A stretch of DNA of 64,000 nucleotides from contig CAJYHN010000013.1 in assembly GCA_913774665.1 (NCBI GenBank), positions 310,001-374,000 of the forward strand, given 5' to 3'. The notes below the pieces were generated by a model. That model did no database searches, had not been told where the DNA came from, and saw only the letters and a program-made list of their open reading frames with translations. The stretch comes from an uncultured Microbacterium sp. (GTDB taxonomy: Bacteria > Actinomycetota > Actinomycetes > Actinomycetales > Microbacteriaceae). Positions 46,755-61,951 of the stretch are shown in pieces; positions within the stretch are counted from its first letter, which is position 1; each line of letters opens with the position of its first letter. The translations under genes and the position numbers were made by a program.

Positions 46755-46785
46755 GACTATCGCGACACCGCGTCGAGCGAGTAAC
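46755..46785 (-). promoter_or_regulatory. Flagellar promoter A (flgN operon)
   Basis: GTTAC (46785-46781), 17 bp, GCGATAGTC (46763-46755). It is one of four identical boxes in the cluster. The predicted start site near 46748 gives a leader of about 53 nt to flgN. Confidence 0.8.
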
Positions 46786-46800
46786 CCCGGCGTCGGCGGA

Positions 46801-47046
46801 TCAGTCGCGGACTCCCCCGCGCAGGGCGTCGAGCACCGCGCTCTCGGCGGCCGCGGATCGCGACGCCTGAACGGCATCCTGATTCTCGTTCGTGACGGCC
46901 ACGACGATCTCGCTGCGGTGGATACGGGTGTCGCGGGGAGCGTCGATGCCGATGCGCACGCCGGTCGCGGTCACCCCGAGCACCGTCACCGTCACATCGT
47001 CGCCGATCACGATGCTTTCACCCGGGCGTCGCGTGAGTACGAGCAT
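46801..47046 (-). CDS. csrA: Translational regulator CsrA
   Basis: The 81-residue RNA-binding dimer starts [20 protein letters not shown] with the TxRxxGE start typical of CsrA, followed by [19 protein letters not shown]. It represses flagellin translation and is itself sequestered by FliW. It has an atypical Ala/Ser-rich C-terminal tail of about 15 residues. It is at the end of the flhA operon and just upstream of promoter A. Confidence 0.92.
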
Positions 47047-47137
47047 GAGCGTGTGGCCGCCTTCCGTGGCTGGTGCGCCGTCGGCGCCGTCCTGGGCCAG
47101 ACTACCTTTTCTTCTCGGTTACGAGCGTTCCGTGCGA

Positions 47138-49201
47138 TCAGGACGAGGGCAGCGCGACCTGTTCGGGACGGACCACGCCCACGACGTCGGTGGCGAATCC
47201 CCCGGCCGCGGCTTCGTCGTAGGACAGGATCGGCATCGCGCCCACCTGCCCCGCCAGCAGGGCGCGCACCCCCTGCCGGAGGGTGGGGGCGCACACGAGC
47301 ACCGGCTCGCCGCCCACGGGATCGACATCGGCGATCGCCCGGCGCACGCCCTCCATCACCTGCATCGTCTGGTCGGCGGTGAGCACGATCTGCGACCGCC
47401 CCTCGACGTGCCGGAGTCCCTCGAGCATCTGCTGCTCCCAGAGCGCGTCGAACATCACCACGCGCAAGCGCCCGTCGTGAGCGAACCGCGCGGAGATCGC
47501 CGGCCCGAGAGCCGCGCGCGCCGCCTCGACCAGGGCGGGGACCTCGGTCGTCGATTTGGCCCGCAGAGCCAACGCCTCGTAGATGCGACCGAGATCGTTG
47601 ATCGAGACGCGCTCGGCGAGGAGGCTCGCGAGCACGCGCTGGATGAGGGCCAGGGGAAGCAGGGCCGGCGTCAGCTCGTCCACGACGCTCGGCTGCGTCT
47701 GCTTCAGGTGATCCGTGAGCTGGCGCACGTCCTCGAGCGAGAGCAGGCGGTGGGCCTGGGCGTGCACGGTGTCGGACAGGTGCGTGATGATGACGCTGGC
47801 TCGGTCGATGACGGTGGCACCCGCCATGTCGGCGGCGTGGGACATCTCGGTGGGCACCCACTTGCCCTCGAGCCCGAAGACGGGGTCGATCACGGCGGAG
47901 CCCGGCAGGTGCTCGAGCCCGGTTCCGATCGCGAGCACGTGCTGGCGCGGGACGATGCCCCGCCCGACCTCGACGCCCGCCACGAGGATCGCGTAGGTCT
48001 CGGCCGGGAGCTCGACGTTGTCGCGCGTGCGCACCGGAGGCATGAGGGTGCCGAGCTCCAGCGCGACCTTGCGACGGAGCGATTTCACGCGGGTGAGCAG
48101 ATCCCCGGCCCCGCCCGCGGCGAGATCGACGATGTCGGGCGAGAGCGAGATCTCGAGCGCGTGAACCCTCATGGTGTCCATGAGGTCGTCGGGCCCCTCG
48201 GCGGCGGCGGCCTCGGCGACCACGCGCGCCTCGGCATCGGCCGCGTCGGCGGCCGCGCGGTCGGTGTTCGCCTTCACCCGCGAGGCGGCGAAGAGCAGCC
48301 CCGCCCCGACCGCCGCGAAGGCGAGGAACGGCATCCCGGGGATCAGCCCCATGCCGATCGCGGCCATCGCGGTGATGAGCAGGGCGGTGCGCGACTGCAT
48401 CAGCTGACGCCCGGCCGCCTGGCCGAGCTCGGCCTCGGCGTTCTCGCGGGTGACGATCATGCCCGTGGACACCGCCATCAGCAGCGCGGGGATCTGCGTC
48501 ACGAGTCCATCGCCGATGGTGAGGATGCTGTAGGTCTCGAGGGCCTTGTCGATCGCCATGCCGTGCATGGTCATGCCGATGATGATGCCGCCGACGAAAT
48601 TGATGACGAGGATGACGATGCCGGCGATCGCGTCGCCCTTGACGAACTTGCTGGCACCGTCCATCGCGCCGTAGAAATCGGCCTCGGACGCGACCTCCGC
48701 GCGGCGGGCCCGGGCCTGCTCGTCGGTGATGAGCCCGGCGTTCAGATCGGCGTCGATGGCCATCTGCTTGCCCGGCATGGCGTCGAGGGTGAAGCGCGCG
48801 CCCACCTCGGCGACGCGCTCGGCACCCTTGGTGACCACGACGAACTGGATCACGGCGAGGATCAGGAAGATGACGAAGCCGATCACGAGCGAACCGCTGA
48901 TCGTGATCTGCCCGAACGCCTGGATCACCTGACCGGCGTGCGCCTCGCTGAGCACGAGTCGGGTCGAGGCGACGTTCAACCCGAGGCGGAAGAGCGTCGC
49001 GACCAGCAGCAGGCTCGGGAAGACCGAGAAGTCCAGGGGCTTCTTCACGAACATCGCCGTGAGCAGGATGAGCAAGGCGAAGGCGATGTTCGTCACGATG
49101 AGGACGTCGAGCAGCCCCACGGGAATGGGGACGATGAGCAGCAGGATGATGCCCACCACCCCGACGGGGACGGCGCCCTTCGACAGCAACTGACCGATCA
49201 T
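47138..49201 (-). CDS. flhA: Flagellar export apparatus protein FlhA
   Basis: The 687-residue protein has about eight N-terminal membrane helices (residues 10-310), including the FHIPEP-family signature VFPSLLLVATLFRLGLNVAS, and a C-terminal cytoplasmic domain that binds chaperone-substrate complexes. AIDADLNAGLITDEQARARR and KFVKGDAIAGIVILVINF also belong to the family. ATG at 49201. It follows flhB by 37 bp. Confidence 0.95.
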   Translation of the reverse strand: MIGQLLSKGAVPVGVVGIILLLIVPIPVGLLDVLIVTNIAFALLILLTAMFVKKPLDFSVFPSLLLVATLFRLGLNVASTRLVLSEAHAGQVIQAFGQITISGSLVIGFVIFLILAVIQFVVVTKGAERVAEVGARFTLDAMPGKQMAIDADLNAGLITDEQARARRAEVASEADFYGAMDGASKFVKGDAIAGIVILVINFVGGIIIGMTMHGMAIDKALETYSILTIGDGLVTQIPALLMAVSTGMIVTRENAEAELGQAAGRQLMQSRTALLITAMAAIGMGLIPGMPFLAFAAVGAGLLFAASRVKANTDRAAADAADAEARVVAEAAAAEGPDDLMDTMRVHALEISLSPDIVDLAAGGAGDLLTRVKSLRRKVALELGTLMPPVRTRDNVELPAETYAILVAGVEVGRGIVPRQHVLAIGTGLEHLPGSAVIDPVFGLEGKWVPTEMSHAADMAGATVIDRASVIITHLSDTVHAQAHRLLSLEDVRQLTDHLKQTQPSVVDELTPALLPLALIQRVLASLLAERVSINDLGRIYEALALRAKSTTEVPALVEAARAALGPAISARFAHDGRLRVVMFDALWEQQMLEGLRHVEGRSQIVLTADQTMQVMEGVRRAIADVDPVGGEPVLVCAPTLRQGVRALLAGQVGAMPILSYDEAAAGGFATDVVGVVRPEQVALPSS

Positions 49202-49238
49202 GCGGTGCGCTTCTTTCGTGTCATGGTCTTCTCGGCTC

Positions 49239-50342
49239 TCACAGTCCCCGCCCGGTCAGGGCCGCCGGGGGCATCTCGAACGTCCCCGAGCGCGAACCCC
49301 TCTTGTGCAGGTGCTGCACGAACGCCAGCACCTGCGCGACGGCGGTGTACAGGGCCTCGGGGATCTCGCGTCCGAGCTCGACGCCCGCGTGCAGCGCGCG
49401 GGCGAGGGGGATGTCGCGCACGATGGGGACCTGCGCCTCCTCGGCGCGCTCGCGGATCTTCTGCGCGATCACGCCGGCCCCCTTGGCCACGACCCGGGGG
49501 GCCGAGGTGCCCGGTTCGTAACGCAGGGCGACGGCGATGTGGGTGGGGTTCACGAGGACGACGTCGCTGTCGGCCACCGCGGCGATCATGCGGTTGCGGC
49601 TGACCGCGAGCTGGCGGGCGCGGCGCTGCGAGCGGATGAGCGGATCGCCCTCGGTCTTCTTGTGCTCGTCGCGCGCTTCCTGCTTGGTCATGCGGGTGTG
49701 CTTGCGGTTGCGCGAGATCACGACGAAGACGTCGATCGCCGCGAGCAGCAGGCCCACCACGACAGCGACCTGCAGCAGCGTCGCGACGGCCTGACCGGCC
49801 ACCTCGAGCAGCCACGCGATGCGGTGCCGCCCGCTGCCCATGAGGACCGGGACGAGACCGGCGACCACGCTCCACAGCGCCACGCCGATCGCCGCCGTCT
49901 TCAGCAGCGCCTTGACACCCTCCCACAGCGCCGCGACCCCCACGGTCCGCTTGAGACCCGCGACCAGGTCGAACTGCTCCACCCGCACGGGCACGCCGCG
50001 CAGGTGGATGCCGCCCTGAGCGATCGCGGTGATCGTCACGGCCAGGAGCACGACGATCAGCAGCGGCAGGAGCACGTGCCCCACCGAGGCGATGGCCGAG
50101 CCGATCGCCTCCACGGCGGTACCCACCGTGGGGTCCCTCGCCACGGCCCCGACCCTCAGCGTCTGCTCGGTCAGCACGGCCGAGGCCGACGACAGCGTCG
50201 CCGGCATCATGACGGCGGCAGCGCCGATGCCGACCCACGCGGTGAAGTCCTGGCTGCGACCGATCCGCCCCTTCGCGATCGCCTTCCTCAGCCGTTCCGG
50301 AGTCGCTTTCTCGGTGCGCTCTCCGGCATCCGTTCCGCTCAT
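49239..50342 (-). CDS. flhB: Flagellar export switch protein FlhB
   Basis: The 367-residue protein has an N-terminal membrane domain and a cytoplasmic domain with the autocleavage motif VLVNPTHIAVALRY (cleaves between Asn and Pro), which changes export specificity from hook to filament. The N-terminal SGTDAGERTEKATPERLRKA segment is the usual acidic/basic start. ATG at 50342 overlaps the fliR stop (ATGA). Confidence 0.95.
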   Translation of the reverse strand: MSGTDAGERTEKATPERLRKAIAKGRIGRSQDFTAWVGIGAAAVMMPATLSSASAVLTEQTLRVGAVARDPTVGTAVEAIGSAIASVGHVLLPLLIVVLLAVTITAIAQGGIHLRGVPVRVEQFDLVAGLKRTVGVAALWEGVKALLKTAAIGVALWSVVAGLVPVLMGSGRHRIAWLLEVAGQAVATLLQVAVVVGLLLAAIDVFVVISRNRKHTRMTKQEARDEHKKTEGDPLIRSQRRARQLAVSRNRMIAAVADSDVVLVNPTHIAVALRYEPGTSAPRVVAKGAGVIAQKIRERAEEAQVPIVRDIPLARALHAGVELGREIPEALYTAVAQVLAFVQHLHKRGSRSGTFEMPPAALTGRGL

Positions 50343-51100
50343 CGGGTCACGCCGATCACCAGGCGGGCGGCGTCATCGGCGATCGCGGACACGATCGACG
50401 GGAGCGCCGCGTAGACGAAACCCACCAGAACGAAGGTGAGGGCGATCTTGATGGGGAACCCGAGGGCGAAGGCGTTCAGGGCGGGGGCCACTCGAGAGAC
50501 GAGACCGAGACCGACGTCGGCGAGGAAGAGCACGATCAGCAGGGGCCCGGCGATCTGCACCGCGCTCAGGAGCATCTGCCCGACCGCGGACGTCAGGACC
50601 TCGGCCGGGCGCGAGAGGTCCACGGTCCCCGCGACCGAGACCGCGTCGAACGAGCGGAAGAGTCCGCCCAGGACCAGCTGATAGGCATCGGACGCGAACA
50701 GCAGCAGGATCGCCGTCATCTGGAACAGGCGGGTGAACTGGGCGCCGTTGACGTTCATCCCGGGATCGAAGGCCTGGGCGAGCTGGAACCCGCCGAACGT
50801 GTCGATGAGGAACCCCGCGCCCTGAACGGCGCTGAACAGCACCAGGACCAGGAACCCCAGGAGCGCCCCGACGAGGATCTGCCCCGCCGCGGCGAGGAGG
50901 AAACCCCCCGCGTCCAGCCGCTCGTACCCCGCGACCACCACCGGCGACACCGCCAGGCCGAGCCCGACCCCGAGCATGCCGCGCACCCGCATCGGGATGG
51001 AGCCGTGGCTGAACGGCGGTGCGATCACGAGGAACGCCGTGATGCGCACGATGGCCAGAGCCGTCGCCTCCAGCCACGTGAAGTCGATGGGGATGTTCAT
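50339..51100 (-). CDS. fliR: Flagellar export gate protein FliR
   Basis: The 253-residue membrane protein has several helices and a family-like beginning WLEATALAIVRITAFLVIAPPF and FDPGMNVNGAQFTRLFQMTA. ATG at 51100 overlaps the fliQ stop. It forms the export gate with FliP and FliQ. Confidence 0.93.
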   Translation of the reverse strand: MNIPIDFTWLEATALAIVRITAFLVIAPPFSHGSIPMRVRGMLGVGLGLAVSPVVVAGYERLDAGGFLLAAAGQILVGALLGFLVLVLFSAVQGAGFLIDTFGGFQLAQAFDPGMNVNGAQFTRLFQMTAILLLFASDAYQLVLGGLFRSFDAVSVAGTVDLSRPAEVLTSAVGQMLLSAVQIAGPLLIVLFLADVGLGLVSRVAPALNAFALGFPIKIALTFVLVGFVYAALPSIVSAIADDAARLVIGVTR

Positions 51101-51375
51101 CCGCCGCCGTTCAGCAACGACGGCAGACGCTGGAAGAGTTCGTGCGTGAAGGCGACCGTCTCGGCGATCATCCAGTTGCCGCACACCATCAGCGCGATGC
51201 CGACCGCGAGAAGCTTCGGCACGAACGACATCGTCATCTCCTGCACCTGCGTGATCGACTGCAGGAGCGAGATGGCGAACCCGACTACGAGGGCGGTGAT
51301 GAGCAGGGGGGCGCTGAGCTTCGCGGCGAGCATCAGGGCGCTCGCCCCGATGTCCATGACCGCCTCGGGATTCAC
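51097..51375 (-). CDS. fliQ: Flagellar export gate protein FliQ
   Basis: The 92-residue protein has two helices (SAPLLITALVVGFAISLLQS and VPKLLAVGIALMVCGNWMIA). GTG at 51375 (VNPEAVMDIGASALMLAAKL) matches the usual FliQ N-terminus and overlaps the fliP stop by 4 bp; the ATG at 51357 would remove the conserved start. Confidence 0.93.
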   Translation of the reverse strand: MNPEAVMDIGASALMLAAKLSAPLLITALVVGFAISLLQSITQVQEMTMSFVPKLLAVGIALMVCGNWMIAETVAFTHELFQRLPSLLNGGG

Positions 51376-52214
51376 GTGCCACCCCGATAGGACTGCACGA
51401 GCGAGGTGATGACGAGCCCCCACCCGTCCACCAGGAGGAACAGCAGGATCTTGAAGGGCAGCGAGATCATGACCGGCGGCAGCATCATCATGCCCATCGA
51501 CATCAAGGCGCTCGAGACGACGAGGTCGATGACGAGAAACGGGATGAACACGATGAACCCGATCACGAACGCCGCCCGCAGTTCGCTCAGCATGAAGGCC
51601 GGGATCAGCGTGTACAGCGGGATCGCCTCGGGGCTGTCGGGGTTCGCCATCTGCGCGGCACGGTGCATCAGGGCGATGTCCTCCTCGCGCGTGAACTGCA
51701 GCATCCACGTGCGAAGCGGGGCCTGCGCGGCATCGAAGGCCTGACCGAAGTCGATCTGCCCCGCGGTGAACGGGGCGACGGCGAGTTGATTGATCTCGGT
51801 CAGCACGGGCCACATGATGAACAGCGTCAGAAAGAGGCTGAGTCCCGCCAGGACCTGGTTCGGAGGGATCGAGGGCAGCGACAGCGCGTTCCGCGTCAGC
51901 GCGAGCACCACGAAGATCTTCGTGAAGCTCGTCATCATCAGCAGCAGGGCCGGGGCGACGCTGAGCACGGTGATGCCCAGAAGCGTCGTGATGCTGTCGG
52001 ACGGCGTCGCGTTGATGCCGTTGATGCTGATCCCGCCCGATCCGCCGGGCTCCCCCGTGGCGGCGAGAGCCGCACCTCCCGCGAAGACGTCGACGACGGC
52101 GAGCACCGCGAGCACGCCGAGCAGACCCAGGATGCCGGCCCCCCAGCGCCCGCGACGGGACGGTCGACGCCGCCCGACGGGGCGGGCCGCGGGGCGCGAC
52201 GCGGGAACGGGCAA
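51372..52214 (-). CDS. fliP: Flagellar export gate protein FliP
   Basis: The 280-residue protein has a long signal-type N-terminus and the FliP core TSFTKIFVVLALTRNALSLP and PNQVLAGLSLFLTLFIMWPV. The start is set to TTG at 52214 because a GTG at 52283 would overlap promoter B and lie at or before its predicted start site. TTG has GGAG 8 nt upstream and gives a signal peptide ending near ALAATG. A longer form cannot be ruled out without experiment. Confidence 0.85.
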   Translation of the reverse strand: MPVPASRPAARPVGRRRPSRRGRWGAGILGLLGVLAVLAVVDVFAGGAALAATGEPGGSGGISINGINATPSDSITTLLGITVLSVAPALLLMMTSFTKIFVVLALTRNALSLPSIPPNQVLAGLSLFLTLFIMWPVLTEINQLAVAPFTAGQIDFGQAFDAAQAPLRTWMLQFTREEDIALMHRAAQMANPDSPEAIPLYTLIPAFMLSELRAAFVIGFIVFIPFLVIDLVVSSALMSMGMMMLPPVMISLPFKILLFLLVDGWGLVITSLVQSYRGGT

Positions 52215-52284
52215 GACGGCACTCCGTGCGTGGGTGACGAGGCCGATCCGTAGCCAGGGGGTCGAGCGATCCGTGCTCGCCACC

Positions 52285-52315
52285 GACTATCGCGACGGCG
52301 CCCCCGCGCGGTAAC
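52285..52315 (-). promoter_or_regulatory. Flagellar promoter B (fliP operon)
   Basis: GTTAC (52315-52311), 17 bp, GCGATAGTC (52293-52285). It starts 4 bp after the fliO stop. The predicted start site is near 52279, about 65 nt before the TTG of fliP. Confidence 0.8.
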
Positions 52316-52318
52316 CGC

Positions 52319-52774
52319 TCAGGCCGCGTGGACCCCGGACCTCTCGCCCTCGCTCGGGGTGCCGGCATCCGTCAACGTCAGGACGTTCTCGCCGCGCTCG
52401 GCGGAGCCCTCCTCGGCGACCTCGGTCGGCGCCTCCTGCGTGTCGACGACGTCGATGCCCTTCTCGCTCACGCCCAGCACGTACCGGATGCCGCCGAACT
52501 CGGCGACGACGAGCTGCGCACGGCCCCCGAGCCCGGTGCGTGCGACCACCGTGATCTTCTCGCCGCGCGCGCGAGACGGTGTCGCCGCCCCGGTGCGGGA
52601 CGCGAAGCCCGCGAAGGGGCGAAGGCGCCGCGTCAGACCCTTCGGCACCAGCGAGGAGAGGGGGCTGCCACCCGCCGCCTGCCCCTTCTGCACCCGCTTG
52701 GCGAGGAAGAGCAGCAGCCCGACCACCGCGGCGAGCGAGACGACCGTCCGCGCGGCGAGGAGCAGATCGTCCAC
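52319..52774 (-). CDS. fliO: FliO-like export assembly protein
   Basis: The 151-residue protein has one N-terminal membrane helix (TVVSLAAVVGLLLFLAKRV) and a FliO-type cytoplasmic domain with EKITVVARTGLGGRAQLVV and FGGIRYVLGVSEKGIDVV. FliO helps assemble the FliP ring. GTG at 52774 is 2 bp after the fliN stop. Confidence 0.82.
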   Translation of the reverse strand: MDDLLLAARTVVSLAAVVGLLLFLAKRVQKGQAAGGSPLSSLVPKGLTRRLRPFAGFASRTGAATPSRARGEKITVVARTGLGGRAQLVVAEFGGIRYVLGVSEKGIDVVDTQEAPTEVAEEGSAERGENVLTLTDAGTPSEGERSGVHAA

Positions 52775-52776
52775 GG

Positions 52777-53436
52777 TCAGTCGTTCCCCGCCTGGTCGAT
52801 GATGCGCTCGACGCGCACAGCGAAATCGCCGTCCGCGACGACGACCGTGCCGTGCCCGATGAGGCGACCGTTCAGCGTGATGTCGGCCGGCGAGCCCGCG
52901 GCGCGGTCCAGCTCGACGACGTGGCCGGGCTCGAGGCTCAGCACGTCGCGCACGGGGAGCCGGGTGCGGCCGATCTCGACCACGAGTTCCATCTCCACCC
53001 CCGCGATCCGGCTGAGCCGAACCGGACCGGCCGTCGAGGCGGCGGCGCGGGCGTCGTCGATGCGGATCGCGGCGCGGGCGACCGTGGTGCCGTCCTCGCG
53101 GACGAGATCGAACACCTGAGCTCCGGCCTCGGTGAACGCGCTCGCGGCATCCACGTCCTCCCCCTCGCCGAGGGTGCCCGTTCCGAGCACGGCCACGGCG
53201 GCCTGGAAGGCGGGGTGCAGGCGATCCGACAGCTCCTGATCGCTCGACCCGTCGTCGAGGACCGCCGGATCGGCGATCTGCACGGCGATGCTGGCCCCCG
53301 GGGCGCCGCTGAAGGCGACGACGACGGCCCGCCCGGTCGCTCCCGGGTCGGTGGAGGGCGTCGGCAGCACGGGGAAGCCGAAGGGGAGCTTCGCCGCGAT
53401 CGCGGCGGCCATGGCGGCGGCGTGGAAAGTGCTCAT
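52777..53436 (-). CDS. fliN: Flagellar switch protein FliN, long form
   Basis: The 219-residue protein has a C-terminal SpoA domain at about 145-215 (IAGVEMELVVEIGRTRLPVR, LSLEPGHVVELDRAAGSPAD, NGRLIGHGTVVVADGDFAVR). The N-terminal 130 residues (MAAAIAAKLPFGFPVLPTP ...) are longer than in Enterobacteria FliN (about 137), so it may carry part of a FliY-like domain. ATG at 53436 overlaps the fliM stop. Confidence 0.9.
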   Translation of the reverse strand: MSTFHAAAMAAAIAAKLPFGFPVLPTPSTDPGATGRAVVVAFSGAPGASIAVQIADPAVLDDGSSDQELSDRLHPAFQAAVAVLGTGTLGEGEDVDAASAFTEAGAQVFDLVREDGTTVARAAIRIDDARAAASTAGPVRLSRIAGVEMELVVEIGRTRLPVRDVLSLEPGHVVELDRAAGSPADITLNGRLIGHGTVVVADGDFAVRVERIIDQAGND

Positions 53437-54326
53437 CGGGTGGTCTCCTCGAGGATGGTGGTGATCGTGCAGGCGAGTCGCGAGCCCTGGGCACCGGGGA
53501 CGGCGCGCGCGATCGGGGTGTCGCCGACGATGAGGTCGAAGGGTTTGGTCTCGGGATGGGCGAAGCGCAGCAGGTCGCCCGGGGCGAGGTTCAGGACCTC
53601 CCCCGCCGCGATGACCCGCGGCGCGATACGCAGCGACACCTCGAGGGGAGTGCCGAGGACCTGATCGACGGTCGCGCCCGCGCGATGGGCCGAGGCCGCG
53701 TCGCGCTCGCTCTCGGCGAGCTGATCGACGACCACGGCAGCGGGCAGCATCACGGTCGCGGTCGAGCGCGACTCCCCCATCCGCATCGCGAACCGCGCGA
53801 CGATGACCGCTTCGCCGGGTGAGATGACCTGGAGGTACTGCGGGTTGTCATGCAGGCCGGCGTAGGTCAGGGGGCTCGGCAGCAGCATCCCCAAGCTCGT
53901 GGTCAGCAGTTCGAAGGTGCGGTCCATCAGCTGGCGGATCAGCGCGGACTCGATGGGGGTCAGCGTGCGCGGTTCGATCGGGACGGTGCTCCTGCCCCCG
54001 AGCATCTGCACGACCCACGCCAGCGCCACCCCCAGATCGAACTGCACGGCACCGGGCTCCTCGCGTCCCGCGGTCGCCCCGGTGACCATCGCGGTCATCG
54101 TCGGAAGGGTGTCGGCGTACTCCTGGTACGACATCAGCTCGACGCCCTCGAGCGTCAGGTGGGTGCGCATGCGCACCTTGCCGGTGAGCTGCGACGCCCA
54201 CTGCCGCGCGAACGCCTCGAACGCCGCCTCCAGCCGGCGGCGGTGCTCGCGTCCGAGCTGGGCCGGGCGGCTGAAGTCGTAGTCGGGGTAGCGGCGCAGG
54301 GGGTCGTCGCGGACGGCGGCCGTCAT
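53433..54326 (-). CDS. fliM: Flagellar switch protein FliM without the CheY-docking segment
   Basis: The 297-residue protein has the FliM core, starting YPDYDFSRPAQLGREHRRRL, the central CheC-like domain and the C-terminal SpoA domain (EVLNLAPGDLLRFAHPETKP). The usual N-terminal LSQxEIDALL peptide that binds phospho-CheY is absent. The upstream in-frame extension is only nine codons, so no longer start restores it. ATG at 54326 has GAAGGAG upstream. fliL is absent between motB and fliM. Confidence 0.92.
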   Translation of the reverse strand: MTAAVRDDPLRRYPDYDFSRPAQLGREHRRRLEAAFEAFARQWASQLTGKVRMRTHLTLEGVELMSYQEYADTLPTMTAMVTGATAGREEPGAVQFDLGVALAWVVQMLGGRSTVPIEPRTLTPIESALIRQLMDRTFELLTTSLGMLLPSPLTYAGLHDNPQYLQVISPGEAVIVARFAMRMGESRSTATVMLPAAVVVDQLAESERDAASAHRAGATVDQVLGTPLEVSLRIAPRVIAAGEVLNLAPGDLLRFAHPETKPFDLIVGDTPIARAVPGAQGSRLACTITTILEETTR

Positions 54327-54359
54327 GGCGGGCTCCTTCGAGGTCGGGGACACGAGGCG

Positions 54360-55172
54360 TCAGCCCCGCGGCGCGTTCTGGACGAGACCGGGGATGAGGG
54401 CACGCACCTTCTCTTCCTCGGTGGACTGCACGACGATGTCGACGCGGCGGTTCGCGGCGAGATCCTCGGCGGTGTCCCCCTCGACGATCGGGCGCTGATC
54501 GGAGTAGCCGACGGCCTGCACGCGGGAGCCGGTGATGCCCTCGTGCTCGACGAGGAAGCGGGCGACCTTGGTGGCGCGTCCGCTGCTGAGCTCCCAGTTG
54601 CTCTCGTACGGCGCGACGGCCGCTCGGTGGTCGGCGTGCCCTTCGATGCTGAGGGGGTTGCCGGCGGGGGCGAGCACGTCGCCGATGGCATCGAGGACGG
54701 CGTCCGCCTTCGCGGAGAGGTCGGCGCGGTTGTCGGTGAAGAAGGTCTCGGCGCCGACGAGGCCGACCTTCAGCCCCCGCTCGTCGATGACGAAGTCGAC
54801 CGTGTCGGCCAGGCCCTGAGCGGCCAGCACCGAGGTGATCTGCGCCTTCATCTGCTCGAGGGAGTCCACCTCGCGGGCAGCCCGTGTCGCGACGTCCTCG
54901 ACGCCGTCGTCGACGAGGAGTTCCGGCGGGATCACCAGACCCTGGGTGAGGTCGCCGCCGCCCTGCGTCTGGGATTGCCCGAAGGCTTCGGCGAGACCGT
55001 TCTTGAGCTGCTCGTACTTGGTGTCGTCGACGATCGACACCGCGTACAGCACGATGAACAGACACATCAGCACGGTCACCATGTCGGCGTACGACACCGC
55101 CCAGCGCTCGTCGGGCTCGTCGTGGTCGTCCTCGTCATGCCTGCGGGTGCGCGCACGACGGCTGGTGCTCAC
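54360..55172 (-). CDS. motB: Flagellar stator protein MotB
   Basis: The 270-residue protein has a charged N-terminus, one membrane helix VSYADMVTVLMCLFIVLYAV with the conserved proton-carrying Asp in YAD, and an OmpA-like peptidoglycan-binding domain (PLSIEGHADHRAAVAPYESN, NWELSSGRATKVARFLVEHE). GTG at 55172 overlaps the motA stop. The Asp and helix match H+-type MotB, but the coupling ion cannot be shown. Confidence 0.93.
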   Translation of the reverse strand: MSTSRRARTRRHDEDDHDEPDERWAVSYADMVTVLMCLFIVLYAVSIVDDTKYEQLKNGLAEAFGQSQTQGGGDLTQGLVIPPELLVDDGVEDVATRAAREVDSLEQMKAQITSVLAAQGLADTVDFVIDERGLKVGLVGAETFFTDNRADLSAKADAVLDAIGDVLAPAGNPLSIEGHADHRAAVAPYESNWELSSGRATKVARFLVEHEGITGSRVQAVGYSDQRPIVEGDTAEDLAANRRVDIVVQSTEEEKVRALIPGLVQNAPRG

Positions 55173-55972
55173 TCGGCATCCCCCGTCGCGGCGGCCTTCT
55201 CGGGCCGGGACTCCTTCTTCTTCTTGGGCTTGTTCGTGGTGAGGGCCAGCAGCCGCTCCTCGACGAGACGCGGGGCCCCGCCGGCCTGGATGGCGAGGAT
55301 GCCCTCGCACACGAGCGTCATGCGCTCCTGCTCGACGGCGGCCATGCGGTTCAGCCGCCCCGCGATGGGGTTCCAGATGAAGTTGGCCGACAGCAGGCCC
55401 CAGAGCGTCGCGACGAACGCCGCCGCGATCATGTGCCCCAGCTCGTCGGGTTTGTTGAGGTTCTCGAGCACGTGCGTGAGCGAGACGACCGTTCCGACGA
55501 TGCCGATGGTGGGGGCGTAGCCGCCCAGGGCCGAGAAGAAGCGGGCGGCCACGCGATTGCGCGCGGACTCGGCGACGATCTCGTCGTCCATCAGCGTCCG
55601 CAGGTCTTCGGCGTCGACGCCGTCGGCGACCGCCTGCAGCGCGCGGCGCGTGTAATCGTCGGGGGCGGAGTCCACCTCGTCCTCGAGGCGCAGCAACCCC
55701 TCGGTCCGCGCCTTCTCGGCGTAGGCGACGAGGATCGGGATGACGGCCGCGGGCGCTGACCGTGGACCGCGCACCATCCGGCCGAGCGAACCGAACGCCG
55801 CCATGGCGTCGCGCAGGGTGTGGCTGGCGATGCCGACGCCGATGGTCGAGCCGAGCACGAGGATCATCGGGGCCGGCAGCAGGAGCGCGCTCAGGTGAGC
55901 GCCCTCCATCGTGATCATGGCGTACAGCGCGCCGAAGGCCACCACGACCCCGACGACGAAAGCGATGTCCAT
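55169..55972 (-). CDS. motA: Flagellar stator protein MotA
   Basis: The 267-residue protein has four membrane helices and the cytoplasmic loop with conserved Arg/Glu (AEKARTEGLLRLEDEVDSAP). GYAPTIGIVGTVVSLTHVLE and HMIAAAFVATLWGLLSANFI are family motifs. The C-terminus is a lysine-rich tail (TNKPKKKKESRPEKAAATGD). It starts 1 bp after the flbD stop. Confidence 0.94.
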   Translation of the reverse strand: MDIAFVVGVVVAFGALYAMITMEGAHLSALLLPAPMILVLGSTIGVGIASHTLRDAMAAFGSLGRMVRGPRSAPAAVIPILVAYAEKARTEGLLRLEDEVDSAPDDYTRRALQAVADGVDAEDLRTLMDDEIVAESARNRVAARFFSALGGYAPTIGIVGTVVSLTHVLENLNKPDELGHMIAAAFVATLWGLLSANFIWNPIAGRLNRMAAVEQERMTLVCEGILAIQAGGAPRLVEERLLALTTNKPKKKKESRPEKAAATGDAE

Positions 55973-55973
55973 C

Positions 55974-56189
55974 TCAGAGCTCCGAGCGCGCCGAGAGAGC
56001 GGATGCCGCGGCGAGGACGCGCGCGCGGTAGGCGACGATGAGGTCGACGAGGTCGTCGAGGCTCTCCTCGACGTTGTAGACGCGACCGTCGACCATGTGC
56101 AGGGTCGTGTCGGGCGACTCGTGCACCCGCTCGATCAGATCCGGGTTCACCGCGAATCGCGTGTGGTCGAGACGGGTGAGGGTGATCAT
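55974..56189 (-). CDS. flbD: FlbD-family protein
   Basis: The 71-residue protein (MITLTRLDHTRFAVNPDLIE, TLHMVDGRVYNVEESLDDLV) matches FlbD, a small protein usually encoded before motA in Gram-positive and spirochete clusters; its function is unclear. It is the first gene of its operon, with promoter C about 38 bp upstream. Confidence 0.88.
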   Translation of the reverse strand: MITLTRLDHTRFAVNPDLIERVHESPDTTLHMVDGRVYNVEESLDDLVDLIVAYRARVLAAASALSARSEL

Positions 56190-56226
56190 CGAGGGGTCTC
56201 CGGTCGATGGGTGAGGGGACGCCCCC

Positions 56227-56257
56227 GACTATCGCGACGCGGCCCACCGCGGGTAAC
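56227..56257 (-). promoter_or_regulatory. Flagellar promoter C (flbD-motAB operon)
   Basis: GTTAC (56257-56253), 17 bp, GCGATAGTC (56235-56227). The -35 lies in the loop of the flgE terminator hairpin (56236-56273). Predicted start site near 56221. Confidence 0.8.
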
Positions 56258-56273
56258 TCGGGTGGGCCGCGTC
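56236..56273 (-). terminator. Terminator of the fliH-flgE operon, overlapping promoter C
   Basis: A perfect 13-bp stem GACGCGGCCCACC / GGTGGGCCGCGTC encloses a 12-nt loop. It lies 16 bp past the flgE stop and covers promoter C from -35 to the edge of the -10. Confidence 0.75.
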
Positions 56274-56289
56274 GTCGGGCGCCGTGGGG

Positions 56290-57453
56290 TCAGCGCTTGA
56301 GGTTGGTGAGTTCCTGCAGCACTTCGTCGCTCGTCGTGATGATGCGGGCGCTCGCCTGGAAGCCGCGCTGGGCGACGATGAGGTTGGTGAATTCCTGCGA
56401 CAGGTCGACGTTGCTCATCTCGAGCGAGCCCGAGACGAGCTTGCCGAAGCCGGCCTGTCCGGCCTCGCCGATCTGGGCGCCGCCGCTGTTGACGGTGGCC
56501 CGGAAGGCGGTGCCCCCGACCTTCTCGAGACCCTCCGCGTTGGCGAAGGTGACCATCGCGACCTTCGCCAGGGTCTCGGTGCGCCCGTTTGAGAAGGTTC
56601 CGATGATCGAGCCGTCCCCGGTGATGGAGTACGACTGCAGGGTGCCGGCGGCGGCACCGTCCTGCGAGGTGATCGCGACCGTGCTCATGTCGGCGAAGCC
56701 GGTGACCGACGTGAGATCGACCCGGATGTCGCGGGCGTTCAGGGTGAGCCCCGTGGGCTGGCGGCCGTCGACGAACGCGAGGGTGCCGGTGGCGCCGCTC
56801 GCGGGCTCGGTGACGTCCCACCCCGTCGCGGTGCGGGTGAAGGTGAGGCTGAGCGAGGTGGTGGCGCCCTGGGCGTCGTGCACCGCGATGTCGCGGACGA
56901 TCTTCTCGCCCACGGCGGCGGACGAGGGGAGGTTGCCGGTCACCGTCGCCGCTGTCGTCTCTCGGGCCGGCGAGACCGCCCCCTGCGGCAGCGAGATGGT
57001 GCCCGCCGCCTGCCCCATGCCCACGACACCGTTCTGAGCGGTCCACCCCTGCACGAACGACCCGTCGGCGGTGACCATGTTGCCGGCGGCGTCGAAGCCG
57101 AAGCCTCCGGCCCGCGTGTAGAGGGTCTCCCCGCCCGAGCGCACCGCGAAGAAGCCGTCGCCCTGGATCATCAGGTCGCCCCCGCGGCCGGTGGTCTGCG
57201 CCGCGCCCTGACTGAAGTTGGTGCGGATGCCGGCGACCTGCACGCCCAGCCCGACCTGGGCGGGGTTGCGACCGCCGGTGTCGGCGCCGGGGATCGCGGC
57301 CTGGCCGACCGCCTGCGAGAGCGTGTCCTGGAAGAGCACCGAGGCGCCCTTGAAGCCGGCGGTGTTGACGTTGGCGATGTTGTTGCCCGTGGCGTCGAGC
57401 ATGGTCTGGTGCGCGCGGAGTCCGGAGATGCCGGACGAGAGGGAACGGAGCAT
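56290..57453 (-). CDS. flgE: Flagellar hook protein FlgE
   Basis: The 387-residue protein has the hook/rod N-terminal motif SSGISGLRAHQTMLDATGNN then IANVNTAGFKGASVLFQDTL, a middle domain with Thr/Gly/Ala-rich beta segments, and the C-terminal motif LSQEFTNLIVAQRGFQASAR ... ELTNLKR. It is exported and polymerises to form the hook, with length set by FliK. It follows flgD by 23 bp. Confidence 0.95.
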   Translation of the reverse strand: MLRSLSSGISGLRAHQTMLDATGNNIANVNTAGFKGASVLFQDTLSQAVGQAAIPGADTGGRNPAQVGLGVQVAGIRTNFSQGAAQTTGRGGDLMIQGDGFFAVRSGGETLYTRAGGFGFDAAGNMVTADGSFVQGWTAQNGVVGMGQAAGTISLPQGAVSPARETTAATVTGNLPSSAAVGEKIVRDIAVHDAQGATTSLSLTFTRTATGWDVTEPASGATGTLAFVDGRQPTGLTLNARDIRVDLTSVTGFADMSTVAITSQDGAAAGTLQSYSITGDGSIIGTFSNGRTETLAKVAMVTFANAEGLEKVGGTAFRATVNSGGAQIGEAGQAGFGKLVSGSLEMSNVDLSQEFTNLIVAQRGFQASARIITTSDEVLQELTNLKR

Positions 57454-57476
57454 GGAGGTCTCTTTCGTGGGGGTGG

Positions 57477-57923
57477 TCAGGCGGACGTGCGGGTGGGTGC
57501 GGTGGCGAGGGAGGTGATGTCATCGAGAGCGACCGTCGCGTCGCCGATGGTGACCTGCGGGACCGGGCCGTCGAAGCTCACCTTGGTCACGATCCCGGTG
57601 ACGGCGACGCCCTTGGCGTCGAGGTAGTCGGCCTGCTTGCCGATGAGGGCCGAAGCGGCCTGGCGCATGTCGAGGGCGAAGGCCTCGGTGGAGGTGCGAC
57701 TCATCGCCGTGAGTTGCTCCATCATGGCCAGTTGGGTGGTCTGCGAGATCATCTGGTTGGTGTCCATCGGGGTGGACGGGTCCTGGTTCGTCAGCTGGGT
57801 GACCAGAAGCTTCATGAACACCTCGCTGTCGAGGACCTTCTTCGGCGCGCTGGTGGCGGCCGTGGCGGTCGCGGTGTTCGCCGGGATCGGGGCGGGTGCG
57901 CCGGTGATCGGGGTGACGGGCAT
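57477..57923 (-). CDS. flgD: Flagellar hook assembly scaffold FlgD
   Basis: The 148-residue protein has the FlgD N-terminal motif EVFMKLLVTQLTNQDPSTPM DTNQM (given as two pieces) and IGKQADYLDAKGV. FlgD caps the growing hook and is not part of the final structure. It is shorter than Enterobacteria FlgD (about 230), lacking the extra C-terminal fold. ATG at 57923, 10 bp after fliK. Confidence 0.93.
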   Translation of the reverse strand: MPVTPITGAPAPIPANTATATAATSAPKKVLDSEVFMKLLVTQLTNQDPSTPMDTNQMISQTTQLAMMEQLTAMSRTSTEAFALDMRQAASALIGKQADYLDAKGVAVTGIVTKVSFDGPVPQVTIGDATVALDDITSLATAPTRTSA

Positions 57924-57933
57924 GGGGGTCCTC

Positions 57934-59481
57934 TCAGACGACGATGTCGAGCCCGCCGCCGGTCAGGGCGACGGAGGGCGCGGACGGGGGACGGGTGCGG
58001 GCGGGTGCGGACGACCCGGCGGCGTCGGGGCGGGGCTCGCGCCCGCGCCCGGCCTGATCGGCGAGGGAGCCGTCACCACCGGGGGCGCCGCGGTCCCCCG
58101 CGCCGGTATCGGCGGTGGGACCGGATCCGACGCTCAGGTGGGCGTGCGGCATGACGCTCGCGAGGTCGCGGCGCAGGTCGGCGATCATGACGCGCAGCGC
58201 GTCTCGGCCGGCCTCGGTCGCTCCGGTGAGGTCGATGCGCACCTCTCCCCCCGAGCCGATGCGGGCGCGGACGGTCACCGGCCCGGTGGAGTCGGGGCTG
58301 ACCGTCAGGGTGATCTGGTGGACACCCGGGGCGCGCTGAGCGATGTGCACGACGGCGGGCGCGACCTGCGCGGCGATCGAGCGCTGGGTCGCCGTCGCGG
58401 CAGCGGTTTCGACCGGAGCGGACGGGGCGAGGGGGACGGATGCCGGCACGGGGGCCGCCGTGTCGACCCCGGTCGTGGCGACGGTCGCCGGTGCCGACGG
58501 CACGTGTCGTGCCGACGGCGAAGCGGGGGCGGCACCGGCGGGCAAGGCCGCACCGGCCGGCAGGGCGAAACCGGCCGGCAGGGCGGCACCCGCGGGCAGG
58601 GCGGCACCGGTGGGCAGGGCGGCACCGGCCGGGGAGGCATCGTCCGGGCCGGAAGCGGCGGGCGCGGCGCTCGCCGTTCCCGCAGCCGCAGCGGGGGCAT
58701 CGAGGACGGCCGGGACGGTGGGGGGCGCGAGAGTGGAGCTCGCGGGAGCCGTGCCCGGAGTGGGCGAGGGAGCGGCGGGGACTCCCCCCGTCGGCGAGGG
58801 AGCGGCGGGGACTCCCCCCGTCGGCAAGGCGACGGGTGCCCCGCCGGTCGCCCCGGGGCGCGCCGATGAGGCAGCGACGGCCGCGGCGACGCGATCGGCC
58901 CCGGGCCCGTCGAGGGGAGGCAGAACCGACGGGGCGTCGTCCCGGGCGCCGGGAGCCGGACCGGCGCTCGACAGGACGGCGGGCGCAGCGGCCGGGCTCA
59001 ACGGCGCCTCCGCCGCGGCCGGGCTCAGCGGCGCCTCCGCCAGGGCGCGGAGGGCGATCGTCTCCCCCGCCGCGGCGGCCGGCGCCGTCTCCGGCGCGGG
59101 AACGAGCGGCAGCGCGTCCGGCGCCTCGGCCGCGGCTCGCGGTTCCCCGCTCGCCGGCGTCGTCGGCGGCGCCGGGAAGGGCATCACCGTCATCATCACG
59201 GGCGCGGGGCTCCCGGCATCCGGACCCTTCGACGAGCATTCGTCAGCGGAGGTCGGATCGTCCCCGCCCGAAACGGACGCGTCGGCCGAAGGCCCCGCCA
59301 CGGGGATCTCGGCGCTCTCGACACTCGACGCGGCGGCGGGATCGCCGTCGCCCGCGGCCAGTGAGCGGGCGGCGTGCGAGAGCGCGTCGCCGAAGCGCGC
59401 CCCGGTCGCCGGATCGCCCGTCGCTCGCATCGCTCGCGCCGGCGCGGTGGTGCTCGCCACGGCGAGGAGAGGAACGCTCAC
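57934..59481 (-). CDS. fliK: Flagellar hook-length control protein FliK
   Basis: The 515-residue protein has a long Ala/Pro/Gly-rich disordered ruler region and a C-terminal Flg_hook domain at about 370-465 (VHQITLTVSPDSTGPVTVRA, VMIADLRRDLASVMPHAHLS). The ruler region is repeated: GGVPAAPSPT occurs twice (30-bp DNA repeats at 58765-58824) and PAGAAL units five or more times. Change in repeat number could change hook length. GTG at 59481 overlaps the fliJ stop. Confidence 0.85.
   Translation of the reverse strand: MSVPLLAVASTTAPARAMRATGDPATGARFGDALSHAARSLAAGDGDPAAASSVESAEIPVAGPSADASVSGGDDPTSADECSSKGPDAGSPAPVMMTVMPFPAPPTTPASGEPRAAAEAPDALPLVPAPETAPAAAAGETIALRALAEAPLSPAAAEAPLSPAAAPAVLSSAGPAPGARDDAPSVLPPLDGPGADRVAAAVAASSARPGATGGAPVALPTGGVPAAPSPTGGVPAAPSPTPGTAPASSTLAPPTVPAVLDAPAAAAGTASAAPAASGPDDASPAGAALPTGAALPAGAALPAGFALPAGAALPAGAAPASPSARHVPSAPATVATTGVDTAAPVPASVPLAPSAPVETAAATATQRSIAAQVAPAVVHIAQRAPGVHQITLTVSPDSTGPVTVRARIGSGGEVRIDLTGATEAGRDALRVMIADLRRDLASVMPHAHLSVGSGPTADTGAGDRGAPGGDGSLADQAGRGREPRPDAAGSSAPARTRPPSAPSVALTGGGLDIVV
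58765..58824 (-). repeat. Tandem 30-bp repeat in fliK
   Basis: Two identical contiguous 30-bp units (58765-58794, 58795-58824) encode GGVPAAPSPT twice. Shorter PAGAAL-coding units of 15-18 bp lie near 58551-58640. All are in frame, so loss or gain would keep the reading frame. Confidence 0.85.
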
Positions 59482-59903
59482 GCGGCACTCCCCTCATCGC
59501 GCGCGGCGCGGACCACGGCCATCTCGTCGAGGGTGCTCTGCTCGGCCCGGCGCTCCCGCGCGAGCTCGCTCTCGAGGTGCGCGGCCTCGAGGCGCTCGAG
59601 CCCCTTGAGCTCCCGACGCGCCTCCACGTGCGCGGCCGACGCGGCCTCCGCGGCCTCCCGGCGCAGGCGGGCCAGCGTCCGCAGGTCGGCGAGCGCCGCC
59701 TGACCCGACGAGCGCGCGGCGGCCAACGCGAGAAGGGTCGCGGCGTCGTCGATCGCGGTGGTGACCTCGCTCAGGCTCGACTCGGCCTGCTCGACCGCCG
59801 TCTCCGCGGCGACGGCCTCGGAACGGGCGAGGGACGACGACTCGGCGGCGGCGCGCTCCTGGACCCCGCGCACACGCAGCAGGCCGGAAAGGGGGAACGT
59901 CAT
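59478..59903 (-). CDS. fliJ: Flagellar export chaperone FliJ
   Basis: The 141-residue all-helical protein (RVRGVQERAAAESSSLARSE ... RELKGLERLEAAHLESELAR) has the FliJ coiled-coil pattern. FliJ sits in the ATPase ring and helps energise export. ATG at 59903 overlaps the fliI stop; the GTGA junction with fliK follows. Confidence 0.85.
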   Translation of the reverse strand: MTFPLSGLLRVRGVQERAAAESSSLARSEAVAAETAVEQAESSLSEVTTAIDDAATLLALAAARSSGQAALADLRTLARLRREAAEAASAAHVEARRELKGLERLEAAHLESELARERRAEQSTLDEMAVVRAARDEGSAA

Positions 59904-61222
59904 GACAGTCCTCCGAAGGTGGTCGTCAGTGCGGCCAAACGCCGCCAGGAGTCGTCGGCCGCGGTCAGATCGTCCATGCGCTGGGTGAGGAACCCGTCGA
60001 TCGCGCTCCGGTGCGCGAGAGCGGCATCGACGAGGGGGTTGGCCCCCGCCTTGTACGCCCCGATGTCGATGAGGTCGTCGGCCTGCCGACGGGCGGCCAG
60101 CACGCGGCGCAGGACGATCGCGGTCTCTCGCTGCTCGGGCGTCGTCACCTTCGAGACCACGCGCGACACCGAGCCCAGCACGTCGATCGCGGGGAAATGA
60201 CCGCGCACGGCGAGGCCCCGGTCGAGCACCACGTGCCCGTCCAGGATGCCGCGCGCGGCGTCGGCGACGGGTTCGTTGTGGTCGTCGCCATCGACGAGCA
60301 CCGTGTACAAGCCGGTGATCGATCCGACGCTGCCGGTGCCCGCGCGCTCCAGCAGCCCCGCCAGGACCGAGAAGGTCGAGGGCGGATACCCGCGGGTCGC
60401 GGGCGGCTCCCCCGCCGACAGCCCGATCTCGCGCTGCGCCATCGCGACACGGGTGAGCGAGTCCATCATCAGCACCACGTCGAGGCCGTCGTCGCGGAAC
60501 TGCTCCGCGATGCGGGTCGCGACGAACGCCGACCGAAGACGCGCCATCGCCGGCTGATCCGAGGTGGCCACCACGACCACCGCGCGAGCGAGACCCTCGG
60601 GCCCGAGATCGTCCTCGAGGAACTCCCGGACCTCGCGTCCGCGCTCCCCCACGAGGGCGATCACCGTCGCGTCGGCGGTCGAGCCGCGCGCGATCATCGA
60701 CATGAGCGACGACTTGCCGACGCCCGAGCCCGCGAACAGCCCGAGACGCTGCCCCACACCGACGGGGGTCATCGTGTCGAGTGCGCGGACGCCCAGCCCC
60801 AGCTGCCGATCGATGCGCTGCCGCCCGATGACGCTGGGAGCCGAGTTCGCCAGCGGGACGAGGGGGGCGCCGACGAGCGGACCGCGGCCGTCGAGAGGGC
60901 GCCCGAGGCCGTCCAGGACGCGCCCCAGCAGTGCCCGTCCGGTCGGTACCCTCAGCGCCGCGCCCGAGTGCCGCACGGGAGCCCCCACGCGGATGCCGGA
61001 CATCGGCCCCATGGGCATGCAGCGCACGGCCTCGCCGTCGACGGCGACCACCTCGGCATCGATCTCACGAGCGCCGGAGGTCTCGATGCTCACGCGATCA
61101 CCGACGGCCGCGGGAACCCCGAGCGCCTCGATGCCGAGGCCCACCACGGCCTTCACGACGCCGGAACGCTGCGGCCGCGTCGCGGCGAGCGCGCGCTCCC
61201 AGCGACCGCGCGGGGCGCTCAC
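59900..61222 (-). CDS. fliI: Flagellar export ATPase FliI
   Basis: The 440-residue F1-beta-like ATPase has Walker A GLFAGSGVGKSSLMSMIARG, Walker B VVLMMDSLTRVAMAQREIGL and the GEPPATRGYPPSTFSVLAGL stretch. It forms a hexamer at the export gate with FliH and FliJ. GTG at 61222 overlaps the fliH stop. Confidence 0.96.
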   Translation of the reverse strand: MSAPRGRWERALAATRPQRSGVVKAVVGLGIEALGVPAAVGDRVSIETSGAREIDAEVVAVDGEAVRCMPMGPMSGIRVGAPVRHSGAALRVPTGRALLGRVLDGLGRPLDGRGPLVGAPLVPLANSAPSVIGRQRIDRQLGLGVRALDTMTPVGVGQRLGLFAGSGVGKSSLMSMIARGSTADATVIALVGERGREVREFLEDDLGPEGLARAVVVVATSDQPAMARLRSAFVATRIAEQFRDDGLDVVLMMDSLTRVAMAQREIGLSAGEPPATRGYPPSTFSVLAGLLERAGTGSVGSITGLYTVLVDGDDHNEPVADAARGILDGHVVLDRGLAVRGHFPAIDVLGSVSRVVSKVTTPEQRETAIVLRRVLAARRQADDLIDIGAYKAGANPLVDAALAHRSAIDGFLTQRMDDLTAADDSWRRLAALTTTFGGLS

Positions 61223-61851
61223 GGCGCTTCCTCGACGTTCTCGTCGATCGAGAGGGCCGCGCGCGCCCGCTCCAGCGCGGCGGCGACCCGCGTGTCGACG
61301 CTTCCGTGCGCGATCCGCACGACCGCTCCCCCGGGGTCGACGTCTGCTCCCACCACGACCTCGACCCCCTCCGGGAGGGACGGGCCCACGAGCGTGCCGA
61401 GCGTGCGCACGTCGCGCTCGTTGAGACGCACGCGCACCCAGGTCGACCGAGGGGTCTGCGCCGCGGCCCGGCGCACGGCATGCGCCGCCGAGCGGGCGGC
61501 ATCCGACATCTCCGCACCGAGGATCGCGGCCGCCATCTCGACCGCGAGCTCCTCGAGGCGTCGCAGATCGGATGCCACGATCGCGGCGATCCCGTCCTCG
61601 AGACGGGCCCGCGCCTCGCCCAGGCCCGACAGCGCCGCCCGGTGGGCAGCCTGCGCCGCGGCCTCGCGCGCGGCGAATCGCTCATCCGCCTCGAGACGCT
61701 CGCGTTCGAGCTCGGCCCGCGCCTCGCGCCGGCCCTCGGCGAAGCCGTCGGCGTAGCCCCGCGCACGCGCCTTGTCGGCGACGGTCCGAGCGTCGGTTCG
61801 CTCCTCGCCCACGCGCGGCAGCACCAGCGGCGTGAAGACGGACTCGGACAC
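61219..61851 (-). CDS. fliH: Flagellar export regulator FliH
   Basis: The 210-residue protein has a coiled-coil N-terminal half with GxxxG-like repeats (ARARGYADGFAEGRREARAE) and a V/A-H-like C-terminal domain (VDTRVAAALERARAALSID). It restrains FliI. GTG at 61851 is preferred (AGGG 8 nt upstream); a GTG three codons earlier (61860) is the alternative. It is the first gene after promoter D. Confidence 0.85.
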   Translation of the reverse strand: MSESVFTPLVLPRVGEERTDARTVADKARARGYADGFAEGRREARAELERERLEADERFAAREAAAQAAHRAALSGLGEARARLEDGIAAIVASDLRRLEELAVEMAAAILGAEMSDAARSAAHAVRRAAAQTPRSTWVRVRLNERDVRTLGTLVGPSLPEGVEVVVGADVDPGGAVVRIAHGSVDTRVAAALERARAALSIDENVEEAP

Positions 61852-61920
61852 GGCGGTCACCCTGCGGTTGTGGCGAAGCCGATCCGTGGCCAAGTCGACG
61901 AGCTATCCGTGCTCTCCCCG

Positions 61921-61951
61921 GACTATCGCGACGCGACGGCGTCGCGGTAAC
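61921..61951 (-). promoter_or_regulatory. Flagellar promoter D (fliH operon)
   Basis: GTTAC (61951-61947), 17 bp, GCGATAGTC (61929-61921). It lies 35 bp past the fliG stop. Predicted start site near 61914, about 63 nt before fliH. Confidence 0.8.

Follow-up and report, generated by a model that had tools for sequence, protein, structure and literature searches.

We analyzed the flagellar gene cluster carried by a 64,000-nucleotide stretch of the genome of an uncultured Microbacterium sp. (GCA_913774665.1, contig CAJYHN010000013.1, positions 310,001 to 374,000; hereafter the window). The reading that we favor, at a probability of about 0.72, is that the operons of this cluster are headed by FliA-type promoters and that several of their messages begin with hairpins predicted to be CsrA sites. 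A FliA-type sigma factor would set the operons and CsrA would sort their messages, repressing fliC and acting at the 5' end of the messages that start with twin hairpins. Most of what is known about CsrA control comes from Gammaproteobacteria and a small number of other groups, and these leaders point to a layer of flagellar control that has been little studied in actinobacteria. A promoter-locked pair of predicted CsrA sites heads the basal-body operon across many flagellated actinobacterial genera; if the reading is true, CsrA is a controller of flagellar order in the actinobacterial phylum, with flagellin under the classical repressing arrangement.

A reading of the sequence alone had reported four identical copies of GTTAC-N17-GCGATAGTC on the coding strand, just upstream of flgN, fliP, flbD and fliH. 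Scanning the window for exact matches to GTTAC-N(15-19)-GCGATAGTC returned these four copies and no other, all with the N17 spacer and on the minus strand, which is the flagellar coding strand, and Pfam confirmed the four first genes (P1 to P4 in Table 1). None of 100 dinucleotide-shuffled versions of the window contained a match to this pattern, and GCGATAGTC alone occurs 4 times in the window where 0.46 are expected. Genome-wide (3.58 Mb, 14 contigs) there are 15 occurrences of GCGATAGTC alone and 5 exact copies of the full motif, every one in a single flagellar cluster, where the copies span approximately 19 kb. Numerous non-flagellar copies, which the sequence-only reading had named as evidence against itself, do not occur in this genome. 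The fifth exact copy (P5) precedes flgB, and the copy that was to be sought before fliC is present with two mismatches (P6). Two-mismatch matches occur at 10 further places elsewhere in the genome, and at 3 or fewer mismatches the 133 matches are at background level (143 for the reversed control). One two-mismatch copy outside the flagellar cluster, at G000:C10:214648-214678 (-), retains GTTAC. In a sample of the genus, 73 exact copies were found in 24 of 198 genomes and none of the reversed control; 66 of these copies have a same-strand neighbor no more than 25 kb away, and the other 7 are isolated.

To place the motif in a wider frame, we used a comparison set of 80 loci anchored on FliI. 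With at most 1 mismatch the motif was found in L014-L022, all named Microbacterium, and with a slightly looser pattern 27 of the 28 forward matches in these nine loci precede flgB, fliH, flbD, fliP or fliC, with none on the reverse strand. The Microbacterium form has GTTAC, 16 bp and CGCGATAG, and that of the other genera CTAAC, 15 bp and GCCGATAG; the difference amounts to one additional spacer base, GTTAC for CTAAC, and CGCGATA for GCCGATA. In the other 71 loci, the forward strand has 93 matches to the pattern C[TC][TCA]AC-N(15,16)-CCGAT[AG] and the reverse strand 30. Among the forward elements, 79 lie at most 200 nt before a mapped gene (36 before flgB, 19 fliC, 16 fliM, 6 flbD, 1 the sigma factor gene and 1 fliS), and 77 of these 79 share one length, which equals the σ28 spacing given in the available text of PMC2859248. 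In that text the σ28 (FliA) consensus is TAAAGTTT-n11-GCCGATAA. The promoters described here resemble it in the CGATA core, and those of other actinobacterial genera (TAAC-N15-GCCGATA, with TAAC at 15 bp in most promoters) keep the spacing too, whereas Microbacterium differs by GTTAC, the extra spacer base and CGCGATAG. Judged by these sequences, the repeats are the Microbacterium-lineage form of a predicted FliA promoter. Two loci of the set are odd in their names: L065, named Microbacterium sp. A20, has a FliI that is 69% identical and a flgB promoter of the non-Microbacterium form, so its name may be wrong, and L084 is a contig labelled Acidobacteria with an actinobacterial flagellar cluster, probably a binning error.

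The sequence-only reading had compared the -10 box with the FliA/SigD type, had remarked that GTTAC is unlike TAAA, and had proposed either a diverged flagellar sigma factor or an extracytoplasmic function (ECF)-like form. Its view of the boxes holds, as the CGATA core is retained within CGCGATAG, with different flanking bases, and Microbacterium has GTTAC at 16 bp in place of the TAAA at 15 bp of FliA promoters. Its first proposal, promoters at operon boundaries with a diverged flagellar sigma factor, is made probable by the restriction of the exact motif to the flagellar cluster in this genome, by a FliA/WhiG-like sigma gene that adjoins fliC, and by the FliA-like elements of other genera; the ECF-like form finds no such support. 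ECF promoters have a -35 of the GGAAC type, which GTTAC is not, and the ECF reading was rejected on the retained CGATA core and on the FliA-like candidate in the cluster. We consider it very improbable that the repeats serve an ECF sigma factor as promoters or a flagellar activator as binding sites: such a view accommodates GTTAC and the divergence of the cluster's sigma protein, but the CGATA core and the order of elements match the FliA-type elements of other genera, and the repeats sit directly upstream of the leaders. The sigma factor beside fliC is the candidate because of its place in the cluster and because its best PDB matches are FliA; its region 2 scores above the Pfam cut-off and its region 4 just below. 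We infer that the repeats are read by this FliA/WhiG-type protein. Promoter form and candidate sigma factor differ together in one genus: the proteins that go with the Microbacterium form have P at position 91 (10/10, against W in 38/39 others), E at 94 (9/10, against R in 38/39), A at 222 (9/10, against S in 39/39) and K at 226 (10/10, against Q in 39/39). These four substitutions are picks among many differences in a single clade; they differ in step with the promoter, but one clade cannot show causation, and they may be drift.

We next describe the leaders. Downstream of P5, P4 and P2, the hairpin GAGC-ACGGAUn-GCUC is followed 22-23 nt on by GGC(C/U)-ACGGAUC-GGC(C/U), and the fliC leader has GGGGCC-ACGGAC-GGCCCC and then ACGGAGG at the ribosome site before the ATG. 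ANGGA in a hairpin loop is what is expected of a CsrA-bound leader, and from their sequence we predict these hairpins to be CsrA sites. Leaders of this kind, which the sequence-only reading had overlooked, follow two of the four window promoters (P2 and P4), and the P1 (flgN) and P3 (flbD) leaders of this genome contain no ANGGA. The P1 leader has at 46725-46740 (-) the sequence ATCCGT, the complement of the ACGGAT in the loops of the other leaders; this may be chance. The coding strands of the 80 loci have 463 ANGGA hairpins in all and the opposite strands 185 (ratio 2.5), whereas eight permuted cores gave ratios of 0.5 to 1.4 in the same strand comparison, and loops located by their stems alone read A-N-GGA with few exceptions. 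The fliC loop is an ANGGAN hexaloop, as in the RsmE structures described in PMC7652899 (cited throughout from its available part). Rfam produced a single match in window positions 43000-64000, mir-598 below its gathering score, and none at the gathering score in L001, L027, L049 and L045.

These leaders are widely conserved. Six of the 80 loci have no flgB, and in 71 of the 74 that do, the twin hairpin pair precedes it; the genera include Microbacterium, Arthrobacter, Cellulomonas, Cryobacterium, Curtobacterium, Demequina, Sinomonas, Terrabacter and others. At least one ANGGA hairpin was found upstream of flgB in 74/74 loci, fliC in 58/61, fliP in 8/32, fliH in 9/51, flbD in 12/50 and the sigma gene in 8/47, and in none upstream of flgD (0/71), fliF (0/75) or fliI (0/79). 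In 59 of 61 loci the ribosome site of fliC contains ANGGA (for L046, alignment A2 uses a neighboring ANGGA with a better stem). In Microbacterium the twin hairpins also precede fliP in all 7 loci with sequence upstream of this gene, which suggests that promoter and leader were copied together as a unit in this genus. The hairpin before the FliA-like sigma gene occurs in L026, L042, L045, L048, L052, L068, L069 and L079 (Curtobacterium), and for this reason translation of the sigma factor may also be under CsrA control. The hairpin before flbD occurs in L028, L029, L035, L049, L051, L056, L060, L062, L064, L085, L088 and L091, and several further genomes have an additional ANGGA near the flbD ribosome site, as in fliC.

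The distribution of the leaders was also followed in whole genomes. In a sample of the order (198 genomes), fliP is present in 69, csrA in 68 and both in 65, and the twin-leader search R1 (E up to 1e-4) found the leader in 41, 38 of which have both genes. The other three are fragmented assemblies with one of the genes, csrA in G439 and fliP in G514 and G570, and R1 found nothing in the 126 order genomes that lack csrA and fliP. Across the phylum, where csrA is present in 73 of 396 genomes, fliP in 62 and both in 56, R1 matched 16 genomes at E 0.001; the match is strong in this genome and G316 alone, most of the others are probably due to chance, and that of G226 lies in a flagellar cluster. 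The co-occurrence of csrA and fliP is weak evidence because the genes are neighbors in many clusters.

The two kinds of leader differ in what their sites are tied to. Positions were taken from the leaders with a recognized -10 and -35, which are 58 of 71 for flgB and 28 of 61 for fliC. In flgB, the first ANGGA lies 13.3 +/- 0.8 nt from the -10 (exactly 13 in 41 leaders) and the two sites are 22.7 +/- 0.9 nt apart (range 21-25), whereas the distance from the twin pair to the start codon is 39.9 +/- 9.5 nt. The start codon follows the end of the second site by 28-63 nt, and this site does not overlap the Shine-Dalgarno sequence. In fliC, the distance from the -10 to the hairpin is 16.8 +/- 0.8 nt, and that from the hairpin to the ribosome-site ANGGA, which overlaps the Shine-Dalgarno sequence, is 29.8 +/- 1.9 nt. 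Both leaders are thus tied to the promoter, and only that of fliC to the start codon. One CsrA dimer bridges sites 10-63 nt apart (PMC7652899), a range into which the site pairs of both flgB and fliC fall. These distances bear on the view that CsrA represses all of the operons, including those with twin hairpins, by blocking the ribosome as on B. subtilis hag. Repression is the commonest mode of CsrA action (PMC7652899) and fliC has the hag-type arrangement, but the second flgB site stands at a variable distance of 28-63 nt from the start codon and at a constant one from the promoter, and we regard uniform repression as unlikely, though it is the strongest of the competing accounts. A role at the 5' end is favored for the twin hairpins because they are locked to the promoter and not to the start codon.

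Sequence variation in the arms was compared with that in shuffled alignments. In the fliC hairpin, which has six pairs, both sides had changed in 33 cells against 12.8 in shuffles and the covariation score was 0.248 against 0.079 (0/500 as high in both cases), slid versions of the hairpin scored lower, and the number of paired cells was above all 500 shuffles. Compensatory change in fliC therefore exceeds the shuffles in 3 of 5 measures. In distant genomes the arms of the flgB leader differ and are still complementary, for example GCGCC/GGCGC in G452 and G506 and GGGC/GCCC in G557. Could the paired elements instead be DNA operators, to which a transcription factor binds a short distance past the transcription start? 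The flgB arms are almost invariant in sequence, the two elements are about two helical turns apart and keep a set distance from the promoter, all of which would suit an operator. However, the constant part is the central A-N-GGA and not the arms, with N varying as at CsrA sites, the fliC arms change with partial compensation, the flgB arms of distant genomes keep their complementarity, and the spacing varies over 21-25 nt. We strongly doubt the operator explanation, and retain that of predicted CsrA sites in the RNA.

Several observations weigh against CsrA-site leaders behind FliA-type promoters. The cluster sigma factor scores 99.9 bits on the TIGR02479 (FliA_WhiG) model, where the cut-off is 189.6, and two more of the genome's sigma factors do slightly better on it. 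The flgB loops are mostly of 7 nt, which may lower affinity. Selection of ligands by SELEX favored R at the loop N of CsrA sites, whereas N is mostly C or U here. The two remaining fliC measures, which are less prone to relatedness than the others, were near the shuffles: 3 pairs with double changes against 2.6 (297/500 as high) and 11 pair types against 9.3 (99/500 as high). Covariation in the flgB stems, at 0.083 against 0.075 (54/500 as high), is like that of the shuffles, and is uninformative because these stems hardly vary. Folded alone, both flgB hairpins exceed a probability of 0.5 in only 2 of 71 loci. Finally, R1 misses 27 of the 65 order genomes that have both csrA and fliP. In the 8 of these whose regions were read, two hairpins precede flgB in G085, G557 and G452, and one hairpin with a second ANGGA in G473, G459 and G493; at least two genomes, G464 and G062, have no hairpin at flgB, and in them a hairpin and a further ANGGA precede flbD instead.

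Comparison with known systems suggests how the two kinds of leader could work. The B. subtilis hag leader with CsrA and FliW (PMC7652899) is like that of fliC in having an upstream site and one on the ribosome site, and csrA and fliW are both present in the cluster. On fliC, a CsrA dimer would bridge the hairpin and the ribosome site and repress translation as on hag, and FliW would relieve this repression. The flgB, fliH and fliP leaders differ from hag in having twin sites away from the ribosome site; on these basal-body and export messages, one CsrA dimer would span both hairpins at the mRNA 5' end, where it could either protect the mRNA or stop the leader from pairing with the start region. 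For these operons activation seems more likely than ribosome blocking, and there is a precedent in E. coli flhDC, in which two CsrA sites near the mRNA 5' end protect the message from RNase E (PMC7652899). The likeness is that a flagellar message has two predicted sites close to where it is predicted to begin, but the genes are different and there is no flhDC master regulator here, and protection of these messages is a proposal. Alternatively, the twin-hairpin leaders may be decoys that set the timing of flagellin synthesis by absorbing CsrA as long as basal-body messages are plentiful. In favor of this idea, three operons of this genome have sites that do not lie at the ribosome site, but FliW, the usual antagonist, is present, and we judge a decoy function improbable.

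The flgB leader might have two states: in one, its bases form the hairpins with CsrA bound to them, and in the other those bases pair with the start region of flgB. If this were true, CsrA would switch basal-body translation on and flagellin off, and the order of assembly would follow from one regulator. It would explain why the flgB stems are frozen when CsrA needs mainly the loop, why the pair keeps its distance from the 5' end while that from the start codon varies, and why flgB tends to encode an early Ser-Val as TCC GTG. This codon pair is used by flgB in 44 of 74 loci; of the 1381 Ser-Val pairs in the rest of the clusters, 207 are encoded in this way. It is the majority form in 11 of 18 genera (33 loci, with genera assigned by hand). 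Pairing of the leader with the start region beats that of synonymous recodings by a mean of 1.4 kcal/mol, and support is weak because the 5% level is reached in only 17% of 71 loci; we consider the two-state leader doubtful. The flgB leader is short and directly testable.

In the open-licence literature we found no published account of the flgB, fliH and fliP leaders. A 2008 description of the Kineococcus radiotolerans motility island reported csrA and proposed a match similar to hag BS2 on the flagellin ribosome site (PMC2587704), and its available text does not mention twin hairpins, flgB, fliH or fliP leaders, or a GTTAC promoter. In the available text of a 2023 survey of actinobacterial flagella, CsrA, FliW and FliA are named once each, in the list of homologs sought (PMC10746217).

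By Pfam and NCBIfam, the window holds flgN, csrA, flhA, flhB, fliR, fliP, fliO, fliM, motB, motA, flbD, a flgE-type gene, flgD, fliI, fliH, fliG, flgK, fliW and a flagellin-domain protein at the flgL position; fliF, flgB, a flgC-type rod protein gene, fliS, fliD, fliC and the sigma factor gene lie upstream of it, and matches to FliJ and FliK were just below the cut-offs. From gene order, we infer operons of fliC-fliD-fliS (P6), flgB to fliG (P5), fliH to flgE (P4), flbD-motA-motB-fliM onward (P3), fliP to flhA-csrA (P2) and flgN-flgK-flgL-fliW (P1); the fliP transcript would then end with csrA and the flgN transcript with fliW. The CsrA of the cluster carries L4 and R44, named as critical residues in PMC7652899, and aligns over 78 residues with the CsrA chain of 5dmb, the other chain of which is FliW.

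Table 1. Predicted promoters, leader hairpins and genes of the cluster (window positions, unless a contig is given)
Feature	Position	Strand	Remarks
P1, predicted FliA-type promoter before flgN	46755..46785	-	exact motif
P2, predicted promoter before fliP	52285..52315	-	exact motif
P3, predicted promoter before flbD	56227..56257	-	exact motif
P4, predicted promoter before fliH	61921..61951	-	exact motif
P5, fifth exact copy, before flgB	C13:375820-375850		1.8 kb past window end
P6, two-mismatch copy, before fliC	C13:378958-378988		
P2 leader hairpin 1, predicted CsrA site	52264..52278	-	GAGC-ACGGATC-GCTC; R1 match C13:362235-362282
P2 leader hairpin 2, predicted CsrA site	52241..52255	-	GGCT-ACGGATC-GGCC
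P4 leader hairpin 1, predicted CsrA site	61900..61914	-	GAGC-ACGGATA-GCTC; R1 match C13:371871-371918
P4 leader hairpin 2, predicted CsrA site	61877..61891	-	GGCC-ACGGATC-GGCT
flgN	46213..46704	-	PF05130
fliP open reading frame	51372..52283	-	TIGR01103; listed start inside leader, probable start TTG at 52214
flbD	55974..56189	-	PF06289
fliH open reading frame	61219..61893	-	PF02108; listed start inside leader, later GTG likelier
csrA	46801..47046	-	TIGR00202 80.9 bits (cut-off 70.1), PF02599; single copy in genome
fliW	43516..43905	-	PF02623 58.6 bits (cut-off 25); single copy in genome

Two further observations concern the surroundings of csrA and fliW. Upstream of csrA (47047-47075, -), GCC-ACGGAA-GGC, a possible site of self-repression, stands close to the ATG, and ACGGAAGG stands 15-22 nt before the ATG. 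Just downstream of fliW, an open reading frame of 110 amino acids (42896-43228, -) has a weak match of the HU/IHF type.

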